Shown here: one piece after another, positions 34,187-38,966 of the stretch | Numbering within the stretch: position 1 is the first letter of the stretch | Layout of the letters: the number at the start of each line of letters is the position of its first letter | Assembly: GCA_947630175.1 (NCBI GenBank) | Contig: CANRGJ010000011.1 | Location: 1-64,000, forward strand | DNA length: 64,000 nt | Direction of reading: 5' to 3' | Source of the DNA: an uncultured Ruminiclostridium sp. | GTDB lineage: Bacteria > Bacillota > Clostridia > Oscillospirales > Ruminococcaceae | Notes under the pieces: model-generated | Told to the model about the DNA's origin: nothing | Database searches by the model: none | What the model saw: only the letters and a program-made list of their open reading frames with translations | Translations under genes and position numbers: made by a program

Positions 34187-34215
34187 TTGACGTAGCTTTT
34201 ACCTTGGTGTATAAT
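34187..34215 (+). promoter_or_regulatory. Promoter of the DHHW/FkbH/ACP cassette
   Basis: TTGACG (34187-34192), 17 bp, TATAAT (34210-34215). Confidence 0.75.
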
Positions 34216-34282
34216 ATAGAAATATAGAAGTATATAGGTATGTGAAAGCATATACCTGTTATGATCATAAAAGGAGCAGATA

Positions 34283-35725
34283 ATGAGCGAACATCAGAAA
34301 TCAGATGATAAAAATAAAAAGCAGACCGACAAGCAGGAAAACAAGAACGAAAAAAAGTCTTCCTTCTGGGTCAAGGCGAATATCACCGCCACCTTGTCCC
34401 TGTTTGCGGGGATAACCTTGTCACTGCTGATATTCCCGCGCCCCACCGAATCGCATACAGAGCGCAGAGATCTGGCAAAATTCCCGCAGTTTTCCGTTGC
34501 GGATTATTTCAGCGGCGATTTTGCCGACGGAGTAACCGAATGGTTTGACGACACGGTGCCCTGGCGCGACGGATTTAAGAACATTTCCTCGCATATCGTG
34601 AAGTATATGGGCGTATCATTGGGAGGGGCAACCGTCTACGGTCCTATCCAGGAGATAAAGCCCACCTCAACTCAGCCGCCTGAGCCCACTCAGCCCACCG
34701 ACACAAATCAACCTACGCCTCCCGATAACAGCGACAGTCCCTCAACTCAGCCTATTGAAGAAAACACCTCCGCCACCGTTACCACCGAACCAGAATTTCA
34801 CGTCGGCGCAGGTGAAATGTCGGAGAGCAACGGTCTTGTTGTGTACCAGAATACCGATACGGGGCATTACTGGTGCGTACAGCTTTACAGCGGCGGTTAC
34901 AGTCAGGACACTTTTATCGAGTATATCAACACTATCGCCGATCAGATAGGCGACTCAGCGCAGGTATACGTTATGGTAGCGCCTGAATCCAGCGAATACT
35001 ATACTCCCGACCAGTATCTTGACTACACCGTTTCCCAGAAAAAGGTAGTGGACTATATCAACAACGGTTTAAGCGACAAGGTCATCGGCGTTGACTGCGT
35101 TGAACCGCTGAGGCAACACGCCGCCGAAGATATTTTCTGCCGCACCGACCACCACTGGAAGCCGCTGGGCGCATACTATGCGGCAAAGGCGTTTGCCGAC
35201 GCTGCGGGTATAACTATACTTGAGGACCTTTCCCTGTATGAACTAAGAACTATACCAAAATTTATCGGCACGTGGTATGGCAGCACTCAGGACCCAAACC
35301 TGTACAACGACTACGATACCTTTGACTACTATATTCCACCTAATGATTTTGACACGTACTATTATGACACAGCTTATCAGAACGAGTTTAAAGCTCCCTT
35401 CTTCCTGCAATATGACTGTGAGGAAAATCCCGACAGCGCATACTCCACCTTTATGGGAGCGGATAACAAGATAGTGCGTGTGGACACCGATGTTAAAAAC
35501 GGGAAAAAACTGCTCGTGTTCAAGGACAGCTATGGCAACGCTGAGATACCGTTCTATATGAACAGCTATGAGCAGATATACGTCTGTGACATAAGATTTT
35601 TTGACCTTAACGCAATTGACTTCATCAAAGAACAGGGTATAGACGACGTGCTGTTCACCATGTGCATTACCTCCGCAACGGGAGATAACGCTTTCAAAAT
35701 GGAAAAGCTCTTCACCAACCCTTGA
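34283..35725 (+). CDS. DHHW family (AlgJ/AlgX-like SGNH) membrane-anchored protein
   Basis: N-terminal TM; 'RTDHHWKPLGAYYAAKAFADAAG' motif; 'LLVFKDSYGNAEIPFYMNSYEQIYVCDIRFFDLN'; T/P-rich linker. Confidence 0.85.
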   Translation: MSEHQKSDDKNKKQTDKQENKNEKKSSFWVKANITATLSLFAGITLSLLIFPRPTESHTERRDLAKFPQFSVADYFSGDFADGVTEWFDDTVPWRDGFKNISSHIVKYMGVSLGGATVYGPIQEIKPTSTQPPEPTQPTDTNQPTPPDNSDSPSTQPIEENTSATVTTEPEFHVGAGEMSESNGLVVYQNTDTGHYWCVQLYSGGYSQDTFIEYINTIADQIGDSAQVYVMVAPESSEYYTPDQYLDYTVSQKKVVDYINNGLSDKVIGVDCVEPLRQHAAEDIFCRTDHHWKPLGAYYAAKAFADAAGITILEDLSLYELRTIPKFIGTWYGSTQDPNLYNDYDTFDYYIPPNDFDTYYYDTAYQNEFKAPFFLQYDCEENPDSAYSTFMGADNKIVRVDTDVKNGKKLLVFKDSYGNAEIPFYMNSYEQIYVCDIRFFDLNAIDFIKEQGIDDVLFTMCITSATGDNAFKMEKLFTNP

Positions 35726-35742
35726 AAGGAATCAGAATAACA

Positions 35743-36897
35743 ATGAATATCAAAAGAATTACGGCGCTGGGGCTTTGCCTTGCTATGCTCCTCTGCGCCT
35801 GCAACGGCAATAATGCCGACGACAATACCACAACAACTCCCACACCCCAAAGCCAGCAGCAGGGCAGTGAAAGTGAAAGCCAGAGTGAAACCACAACTCC
35901 CACTTCCGAAGAATCGGAAAATACTTCCTCCGATACTTCTTCTTCGGAGGAGGAATCCGTTCCCCCTGTCACCGAGCCTGCGGGAAACGTTCCCGACGAC
36001 TACCGTGAATACGGCGAAAACGGCATACTCGTAGTAGGAAGAAACGGGCATTACGTAGGGCTCAGCGGCTGCTGGGGAACGCTGGAGCTTTGCGACAGCT
36101 ACACCGCTTCCCTCAACAAAGCGGCAGAGCTGCTCCCCGACGTTAATATATACGATATGATAGCTCCCACCGCCGTGGAATTTTATCTTCCCGACGACGT
36201 AACGGGCTTTACAGGCAGTCAGAAGGAAAAGATAGACCACGTTAAAAGCGGGCTGAAAAACGTAACTGAGATAGACGCTTACGGCGTTCTTGAACAACAT
36301 CAGGACGAATACATCTATTCCCGCACCGACCACCACTGGCAGCCTTTGGGCGCATACTACGCCGCAAAGGAATTTGCTCAGCAGTCGGGAACCGGCGACC
36401 TGTTCCCCGCCTTGTCGAAATATGAAGCAGTGACTAAAGATGGGTATGTGGGCTCATACTATAACTACTCAAAATGCGAATGTCTGAAAAACGACCCCGA
36501 GCCTTTCACCCTGTACATTTCCCCCAATGCGGACGCTCTTACCACAACATATTATGACACCTCTTTCCAGAACGGCGAGCAGGGACATCTGTTCCCCTAT
36601 CCTGACGCCAGCGGATATTATCTTTCATTCCTGGGAACGGACATCTGCATAGCAGAGATAGATACCGACTGCAAGAACGGCAGAACTCTCGTCATCTGCA
36701 AGGAAAGCTACGGAAACGCCCTTGTTCCTTTCCTGACAAGCTGCTATGAAAAGATATACGTTACGGATATGAGATATTTTGATATTAACCTTGTGGACTT
36801 CTGCAAGGAGGTTGGAGCGACCGACCTGCTGTTTGCCTGCTGTACCTTTACTCCCGCAGGCGGAAACGGCTCCTATCTTGAAGATATAATAAAATAA
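35743..36897 (+). CDS. DHHW family lipoprotein, paralog of upstream gene
   Basis: Lipobox 'LCLAMLLCACNG'; 'SRTDHHWQPLGAYYAAKEFAQQSG'; 'LVICKESYGNALVPFLTSCYEKIYVTDMRYFDINL'. Confidence 0.85.
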   Translation: MNIKRITALGLCLAMLLCACNGNNADDNTTTTPTPQSQQQGSESESQSETTTPTSEESENTSSDTSSSEEESVPPVTEPAGNVPDDYREYGENGILVVGRNGHYVGLSGCWGTLELCDSYTASLNKAAELLPDVNIYDMIAPTAVEFYLPDDVTGFTGSQKEKIDHVKSGLKNVTEIDAYGVLEQHQDEYIYSRTDHHWQPLGAYYAAKEFAQQSGTGDLFPALSKYEAVTKDGYVGSYYNYSKCECLKNDPEPFTLYISPNADALTTTYYDTSFQNGEQGHLFPYPDASGYYLSFLGTDICIAEIDTDCKNGRTLVICKESYGNALVPFLTSCYEKIYVTDMRYFDINLVDFCKEVGATDLLFACCTFTPAGGNGSYLEDIIK

Positions 36898-36910
36898 CTG
36901 TGAGGAAAAA

Positions 36911-38674
36911 ATGGCGAATTTTTACCCCTTTGACAGTGCGGAGCTTACCAAAAAGCGAAAATCCATAAAGCGCGCCCTGCTCTCAGACGGCAGTAAGCGG
37001 ATAGAAAAGAAGATCGCGGTGCTTGGCGGCTCCACCACCAACGGAATCGTGGATATGCTGGAGCTTTTCCTGCTTTATTACGGGATAAAGGCGGAGTTTT
37101 ACCAGTGCGAATACGCCCAATACTGGCAGGACGCAATGTTCGGCGCTGAGCTGCGTGAGTTTCAGCCTGATTTTGTGTTTATCCATACCACTTCAAGAAA
37201 TATCTCCGCTTTCCCCGAAATGTCAATGAGCAGGGAGGAAGTAGACAGTCTTCTGAAAAATCAGCTTGAGCATTTCACCGTGATGTGGGATAAGCTGAGG
37301 GAGGACCTTTCCTGTCCCGTTATACAAAACAATATGGAAATGCCGTACTGGAGACTGCTTGGCAACAAGGACTGCGCCGACTTTCACGGCAGGGTGAATT
37401 TTGTGACAAGGCTGAACGGCGGTTTTTACGATTACGCCGCAGAACACAGTGATTTTTACATTCACGATATAAACTATCTCAGCGCATCGCTGGGACTGGA
37501 AAAGTTTTCCGACCCGCTGTACTGGAATATGTACAAGTATGCGGTGGCTGTGCCGTTTTTCCCTGATTTTGCCTTTAGTCTGGCGAAAATTTTCGCTTCT
37601 CTACTTGGAAAAAACAAAAAAGTCCTCGCCCTTGACCTGGACAACACCCTTTGGGGCGGCGTTGTGGGGGACGACGGAGTGGAAAATCTTGCTTTGGGGC
37701 AGGAAGTACCATTGGGGCAGGCGTACTGCGAGTTTCAGTCCTATATCAAGGCGCAAAAACAGCTTGGGGTACTTTTGACGGTATGCTCAAAAAACGACCG
37801 TGAAAACGCAATTGCGGGACTTGAACACCCTGACGGCGTTCTTCGCCCCGACGATTTCACCGTGATAAAGGCTAACTGGGACCCTAAAAGCCTGAACATT
37901 CAGCAGACCGCAAAGGAGCTTGACCTGCTCCCCGAAAGCATAGTGTTCGTGGACGATAATCCCGCCGAGCGCGCAATTGTTGGCGATATGGGGATAGAGA
38001 CCCCGCCTATGGACAGAATTGAAAATTACATCAAGACCCTTGACAAGGGCGGATATTTTGAAGTGACGAACTTCTCCGCCGACGACCTGCGCAGAGTTGA
38101 GATGTACAAGCAAAACGCCGAGAGGGCGGCGGCGCAGTCCTCCTTCAAGGATTACGGGGAATATCTGGATTTTCTTGAGATGAAAGCGGTCATTGAGGAC
38201 TTTTCGCCTATCAATCTGGCGAGAGTTACTCAGCTCACCAACAAGAGCAACCAGTTTAATCTCACCACCAAACGCTATTCCCCCGCCGAAATGGAAAAGG
38301 TGTACAAAAGCGAAAATTATATCCGCCTTTGCGGACGGCTTACGGACAAATACGGCGATAACGGCATTGTGAGCGTGATCATCGGTGAAAAGCAGGGAGA
38401 TGTTCTTGATATTCAGCTTTGGCTGATGAGCTGCCGCGTGCTGAAAAGAGAGATGGAATTTGCTATGCTGGACGTGCTTGCTCAAAAGGCAAGGGAGCAG
38501 GGCATAACGAAGCTGGTGGGACATTATTACCCCACTCCGAAAAATTCTATGGTAAAGGACTTGTATATGGACTTCGGTTTCACAAAGACGGAGGAGGACG
38601 GCGAGGGAAATACCCGCTGGGAGCTGTCAATTGATCCTTACGAAAACCGGACTTCACATATTGAAATAAACTGA
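36911..38674 (+). CDS. HAD-IIIC family (FkbH-like) phosphatase/acyl-loading protein
   Basis: HAD motif 'KKVLALDLDNTLWGGVVGDDG', 'VDDNPAERAIV', C-terminal GNAT-like region 'LTNKSNQFNLTTKRYSPAEM'. Confidence 0.92.
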   Translation: MANFYPFDSAELTKKRKSIKRALLSDGSKRIEKKIAVLGGSTTNGIVDMLELFLLYYGIKAEFYQCEYAQYWQDAMFGAELREFQPDFVFIHTTSRNISAFPEMSMSREEVDSLLKNQLEHFTVMWDKLREDLSCPVIQNNMEMPYWRLLGNKDCADFHGRVNFVTRLNGGFYDYAAEHSDFYIHDINYLSASLGLEKFSDPLYWNMYKYAVAVPFFPDFAFSLAKIFASLLGKNKKVLALDLDNTLWGGVVGDDGVENLALGQEVPLGQAYCEFQSYIKAQKQLGVLLTVCSKNDRENAIAGLEHPDGVLRPDDFTVIKANWDPKSLNIQQTAKELDLLPESIVFVDDNPAERAIVGDMGIETPPMDRIENYIKTLDKGGYFEVTNFSADDLRRVEMYKQNAERAAAQSSFKDYGEYLDFLEMKAVIEDFSPINLARVTQLTNKSNQFNLTTKRYSPAEMEKVYKSENYIRLCGRLTDKYGDNGIVSVIIGEKQGDVLDIQLWLMSCRVLKREMEFAMLDVLAQKAREQGITKLVGHYYPTPKNSMVKDLYMDFGFTKTEEDGEGNTRWELSIDPYENRTSHIEIN

Positions 38675-38689
38675 AAGGGAGCTTGAGCT

Positions 38690-38923
38690 ATGGACGAGAT
38701 ATACGAAAGACTGAACAGCGTGTTTAGAGATGTTTTTGACGACGACAGCATTACCGTGAACGAGGACACCACCGCCGACGATATCGAGGACTGGGACAGC
38801 CTGAACCACATCACGCTGATAGACGCTGTGGAAAGCGAATTCGGCGTGCGCTTCACTATGGGTGAGGTAAGCGGTATGAAAAACGTGGGGGAAATGGCGA
38901 ATATAATTAAGGAACGTATGTAA
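38690..38923 (+). CDS. Acyl carrier protein
   Basis: 77 aa; 'TTADDIEDWDSLNHITLIDAVESEFGVRF' with phosphopantetheine Ser in DSL. Confidence 0.92.
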   Translation: MDEIYERLNSVFRDVFDDDSITVNEDTTADDIEDWDSLNHITLIDAVESEFGVRFTMGEVSGMKNVGEMANIIKERM

Positions 38924-38935
38924 AAGGGCAGAATA

Positions 38936-38966
38936 AAACGCCGTGATAAATTTCACGGCGTTTTTT
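38936..38966. terminator. Bidirectional terminator between ACP and rmuC
   Basis: aaaacgccgtgataaatttcacggcgttttttg. Confidence 0.85.

Follow-up and report, generated by a model that had tools for sequence, protein, structure and literature searches.

The window, a stretch of 64,000 nucleotides from an uncultured Ruminiclostridium sp., carries a compact cassette of four genes in the order DHHW1, DHHW2, FkbH and ACP, all on the plus strand and separated in the ORF analysis by gaps of 17, 13 and 15 nt:

34187-34215, plus strand: sigma-70-type promoter match, TTGACG-17-TATAAT, 11 of 12 consensus positions (a consensus match only)
34283-35725, plus strand: DHHW1, 480 aa (PF14286, E=1.3e-48, 167 bits against a cut-off of 25)
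35743-36897, plus strand: DHHW2, 384 aa counted from ATG (PF14286, E=7.6e-49, 167 bits against the same cut-off)
36911-38674, plus strand: FkbH, 587 aa (TIGR01686, 271 bits against a cut-off of 147, and PF21211 FkbH_N)
38690-38923, plus strand: ACP, 77 aa, stand-alone, with the PF00550 phosphopantetheine site
38935-38964, plus strand: intrinsic-terminator-like stem-loop, a 12-pair stem followed by a T run

The promoter match is the top-scoring site of the 7 kb scanned, and together with the stem-loop and its T tail it bounds the four genes as the original prediction had described. The families named there were recovered for all four genes by Pfam and NCBIfam, and the operon indeed lacks an MBOAT. 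One DHHW protein had been read as membrane-anchored and the other as a lipoprotein, which agrees with the single N-terminal hydrophobic segment of DHHW1 and the lipobox LLCAC in the translation of DHHW2; for the latter, an alternative TTG start lies at 35722. The flanking genes, a P-type ATPase and RNase HI upstream and an RmuC-like gene on the opposite strand downstream (named from their sequences), look unrelated to the cassette. Several congeneric genomes have a gene of 442-446 aa immediately upstream of the DHHW genes (L046 12444-13769, minus strand, and L255-L258); the one scanned, in L046, matched DUF308, and in the window species an RNase HI-like gene occupies that place.

A T-D-H-H-W block, a Ser and a D-x-R motif are conserved in 55 DHHW proteins and present in each of the window paralogues. 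They correspond to T288-D289-H290-H291-W292, S416 and D436/R438 in DHHW1 and to the intact motifs D203-H204-H205-W206, S329 and D349/R351 in DHHW2, and we propose that DHHW1 is an SGNH-like acyltransferase that would act in the role of DltD or PatB1. DHHW1 matches PDB entry 4NZK with 282 bits and PatB1 of Bacillus cereus (5V8D) with 32 bits. The former is EUBSIR_00411 of [Eubacterium] siraeum (name from PMC9487903), deposited as an uncharacterised protein, and the first DHHW protein of the same operon in another genome of the window's genus (G133) is 100% identical to it over 328 residues; that genome is therefore probably [Eubacterium] siraeum, and the window organism a congener. A solved structure without an assigned function thereby gains a likely role from the cassette. 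Elsewhere in the window genome, two large tandem DHHW/AlgJ-like proteins of 727 and 594 aa, the first with a weak PF14286 match, are found near a glycosyltransferase-like gene (contig C22; L013 172-4022).

The FkbH protein is a predicted glyceryl-loading enzyme of the HAD-IIIC type with an FkbH_N domain. Its HAD motifs I-III are intact, and D242/D244, S293-K294-N295, D348/D349 and C508 are near-invariant among 59 relatives; the active site, on which the original prediction had staked its reading, is thus conserved. Our guess is that C508 holds the acyl group. In polyketide pathways, FkbH proteins produce glyceryl-ACP (PMC7489565, PMC3679948). The pantetheinylation site of the window ACP, Ser37 within DWDSL, is conserved in 55 ACPs, and this ACP is the sole close copy in the genome. 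A second FkbH-domain protein of 1075 aa (G000:C12:63675-66902; L012 8676-11903), encoded downstream of nucleotide-sugar and heptose-type genes, was rejected as part of the system on account of its nucleotide-sugar surroundings and the lack of an adjoining MBOAT or ACP.

The original prediction left two options for the missing MBOAT, encoded elsewhere or replaced, and suggested a search of the genome. The assembly (2.70 Mb, 46 contigs, 100% complete) encodes two MBOATs:

contig C6, 74057-75460, minus strand: orphan MBOAT, no DHHW gene adjoining
contig C1, 351000-352409: MBOAT with its own DHHW gene downstream

The C6 protein scores 75 bits against PF03062 (cut-off 27), its residues H280/H317 and Y464 are invariant, and its C-terminus ends in FAYWNF, an instance of the FXYXXF acyl-shuttle motif. 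The C1 MBOAT also carries a fused FXYXXF tail, and so do nearly all MBOATs of the clade described below. As bit-score cut-offs alone failed to split this clade from its sister clade, MBOATs were grouped by a maximum-likelihood tree. The C6 orphan falls in a 33-member clade (support 100/100) that holds all 22 FkbH/ACP-linked members of its type, and the C1 MBOAT groups with 20 MBOATs of which none is ever linked. The DHHW tree displays the same split, with both window DHHW proteins in the cassette clade and apart from the DHHW protein of C1. MBOATs of linked loci match the C6 orphan with 514-659 bits compared with 290-402 bits for the C1 MBOAT. Three of the 33 clade members come from genomes without a detected FkbH, one of them 55% complete (G016) and two belonging to a single genus (G194 and G114). 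The C1 MBOAT was rejected as the cassette's partner given its adjacent DHHW gene and its grouping with FkbH-less pairs. The C6 orphan combines the features of an MBOAT-SGNH acyltransferase, i.e., the catalytic His, the C-terminal FXYXXF and an SGNH partner, the pairing following from clade and co-occurrence. Tree and motif thus settle the question in favour of "elsewhere", and the C6 orphan appears to belong to the cassette as its membrane half, which identifies the partner that the split operon lacked. The closest solved structure to this MBOAT is DltB by sequence, and also by fold for a modelled relative (L175), whose monomer model has a DltB-like fold and a low-confidence C-terminal tail.

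Gene neighbourhoods labelled by profiles tie the two halves together in relatives. Of the family's 199 genomes, 74 encode FkbH relatives, and the order MBOAT-DHHW-FkbH-ACP is found in about 20 related genomes; loci of the GTDB collection from Ruminococcus, Ruminiclostridium, Oscillospiraceae and other MAGs have the same cassette, and two of them (L231, L244) have two or three DHHW genes with a same-type MBOAT adjacent. Within the window's genus, cassette and MBOAT are unlinked wherever both neighbourhoods were read, and yet they travel together: of 31 congeneric genomes, 21 encode FkbH and 22 the C6-type MBOAT, which is fragmented in two of them; both occur in 21, FkbH by itself in none, the MBOAT by itself in one 80% complete genome and neither in nine (Fisher p = 5e-7, without correction for kinship). 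The anticipated co-conservation of the cassette genes therefore holds both in adjacent and in unlinked form.

One alternative is that MBOAT and DHHW proteins carry out ordinary O-acetylation from acetyl-CoA and that the FkbH-ACP pair, though encoded in the same operon, belongs to an unrelated pathway. DHHW proteins of known function such as PatB1 are O-acetyltransferases, and MBOAT-DHHW pairs without FkbH and ACP are common. However, FkbH-ACP is repeatedly linked to MBOATs of two separate lineages, the unlinked genes co-occur within the genus as described, and two genomes (G109, G190) have MBOAT-DHHW-ACP operons without FkbH. A further argument against this alternative, which we regard as quite improbable, is the loss of the motif GG(N/S)R in the linked MBOATs.

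AlgI and PatA carry this motif. FkbH-less MBOATs typically read FWRRWHI(S/T)LGxWFRDYVYIPLGG(N/S)R, compared with FWQRWHISLGxFFRDYLLYxPIFGKRR in those of the cassette. Among 70 MBOATs that have an ACP no more than 4.5 kb away, 68 are without the GG(N/S)R part, and the other two are second MBOATs of their loci. The part is present in 34 of the 51 that are not ACP-linked; of the remaining 17, 16 by hand count have an FkbH more distantly in the locus or at another place in the genome. Only overall counts are used from this tally, as the MBOAT types it assigned to loci L154-L173 (type B) were wrong. The association (p = 5e-15) is not corrected for shared ancestry, the independent units being lineages and not rows, and it is descriptive only, since the signature was noticed during sequence comparison and not predicted beforehand. 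The cassette-clade MBOATs of G194 and G114, the two genomes of one genus without an FkbH match, read PMGGNR and PLGGNR. At four loci (L061, L084, L202, L230) FkbH lies near an MBOAT with no ACP detected between them, and these MBOATs retain GG(N/S)R. DltB, whose acyl donor is the carrier protein DltC (PMC12148441), is without the motif. From this correlation, GG(N/S)R may mark the use of acyl-CoA, and motif and ACP linkage together point to a carrier protein as donor for the cassette MBOAT. Such a motif would provide a simple sequence test for the donor used by a bacterial MBOAT.

The second MBOAT lineage linked to FkbH-ACP is distant from the first and mostly lacks GG(N/S)R as well; the loci scanned (L054, L060) are set among polysaccharide genes. 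Its partner, which received no name from Pfam, is TM-anchored and shows G-x-S and D-x5-H residue patterns, and a model of it has an SGNH fold with matches that include TesA, DltD and PatB (E of about 1e-3 to 7e-3, probability near 1). These surroundings bear on the idea that FkbH and ACP supply glyceryl to a small secreted metabolite, either a tetronate or a nonribosomal peptide. Streptomyces and other producers are known to use FkbH in this way, but the operon contains no PKS or NRPS gene, and its partners, in relatives too, are an MBOAT and SGNH proteins, joined in the second lineage by polysaccharide genes; we consider a secreted product very improbable indeed.

More plausible, though still unlikely, is that the same machinery exports another cargo: a glyceryl-derived C3 group on the ACP, such as lactyl, pyruvyl or 3-hydroxypropionyl, for which the enzymes would be encoded elsewhere. 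Some of the more distant relatives are suggestive in this respect. Downstream of FkbH-ACP in L086 lie genes for a MaoC dehydratase and an SDR reductase, with like-sized genes in L085, L088 and similar loci, and from L186 6001-9958 onward FkbH, the N and C halves of a transketolase, MaoC and ACP lie in a row with an MBOAT downstream. Judging by these genes, the C3 cargo seems to be altered in some lineages. Against this stand the window cassette and its roughly 20 close relatives, in whose labelled gene order no such enzyme lies between the cassette genes or directly next to them.

Overall, the cassette likely provides loading and delivery in a carrier-protein-fed MBOAT-SGNH system for surface acylation, of which the C6 orphan MBOAT would be the membrane half. 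The gene set, the intact catalytic residues, the link between MBOAT and cassette and the donor-type motif argue for this at the sequence level, and the acyl group, the reaction and the acceptor given here are those we infer. FkbH would load the glyceryl group of D-1,3-bisphosphoglycerate onto the phosphopantetheine of the 77-aa ACP, as judged from its polyketide relatives. On the inner side of the membrane, the MBOAT may then accept the acyl group from the ACP and load it on the Tyr of its C-terminal FAYWNF tail, from which a DHHW protein on the outside would receive it on its Ser. Finally, the TM-anchored and lipoprotein DHHW proteins could place it on a hydroxyl of wall polysaccharide or exopolysaccharide. 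The exported cargo is probably D-glyceryl from 1,3-bisphosphoglycerate, destined for the wall or exopolysaccharide. Transfer of an acyl group from ACP to the surface, as originally predicted, is strongly supported by gene linkage, tree, co-occurrence and conserved active sites, and its glyceryl identity is an extrapolation.

No description of an FkbH-ACP-MBOAT-DHHW set was found in the open-access papers searched, although one may exist elsewhere, and searches on glyceryl-ACP or glyceroyl polysaccharides likewise yielded nothing usable. According to a 2025 paper, MBOAT-SGNH pathways other than Dlt lack a carrier protein (PMC12148441). The cassette set, present in many genomes, breaks the rule that Dlt alone among these pathways uses one. 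On balance we lean towards a widespread Dlt-like family in gut Clostridia and some other bacteria, which would use FkbH and a dedicated ACP to turn 1,3-bisphosphoglycerate into D-glyceryl esters on cell-surface polysaccharide, and in which the MBOAT's donor, CoA or carrier protein, could be read from GG(N/S)R downstream of the conserved RWH. Should the cargo be glyceryl, a central glycolytic intermediate would be tied directly to the surface chemistry of common gut bacteria.

Among known systems, the polyketide glyceryl-ACP modules (e.g., Mad7/Mad8) share FkbH and a small stand-alone ACP with the cassette; their glyceryl-ACP goes into a polyketide or tetronate, whereas here they are partnered by acyltransferases of the membrane and surface. 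PatA/PatB, AlgI/AlgJ/AlgX and B. cereus PatA1/PatB1 resemble the delivery part, in that an MBOAT with a fused C-terminal FXYXXF works with an SGNH partner, which in the case of PatB1 is a DHHW protein like those of the cassette. In PatA, the Tyr of the FXYXXF tail at the C-terminus receives acetyl from CoA, and PatB then takes it over (PMC12148441). These O-acetylation systems have no carrier protein and use acetyl-CoA as donor (PMC12148441), in contrast to the cassette set with its FkbH and ACP, and the cassette MBOAT differs from the PatA/AlgI type in lacking GG(N/S)R. The closest parallel is the Dlt system of teichoic acid D-alanylation (DltA, DltC, DltB, DltX, DltD), in which a loader likewise charges a carrier, an MBOAT passes the acyl group to a Tyr shuttle and an SGNH protein delivers it to a polymer outside; there, DltC is the donor and the FXYXXF tail is a separate protein, DltX (PMC12148441). 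No DltA was found above cut-off in the window genome (best TIGR01734 match 119 bits versus 560), and neither of its two MBOATs is DltB, since each has the tail fused on, unlike DltB. The cassette would thus replace the adenylating DltA with an FkbH HAD protein as loader and DltC with its ACP. The shuttle motif, on DltX in the Dlt system, here forms the C-terminal end of the MBOAT itself, as it does in PatA, which makes a separate DltX unnecessary and would let one protein stand for DltB and DltX together, and the SGNH partner in the place of DltD would be a DHHW protein, a permuted version.
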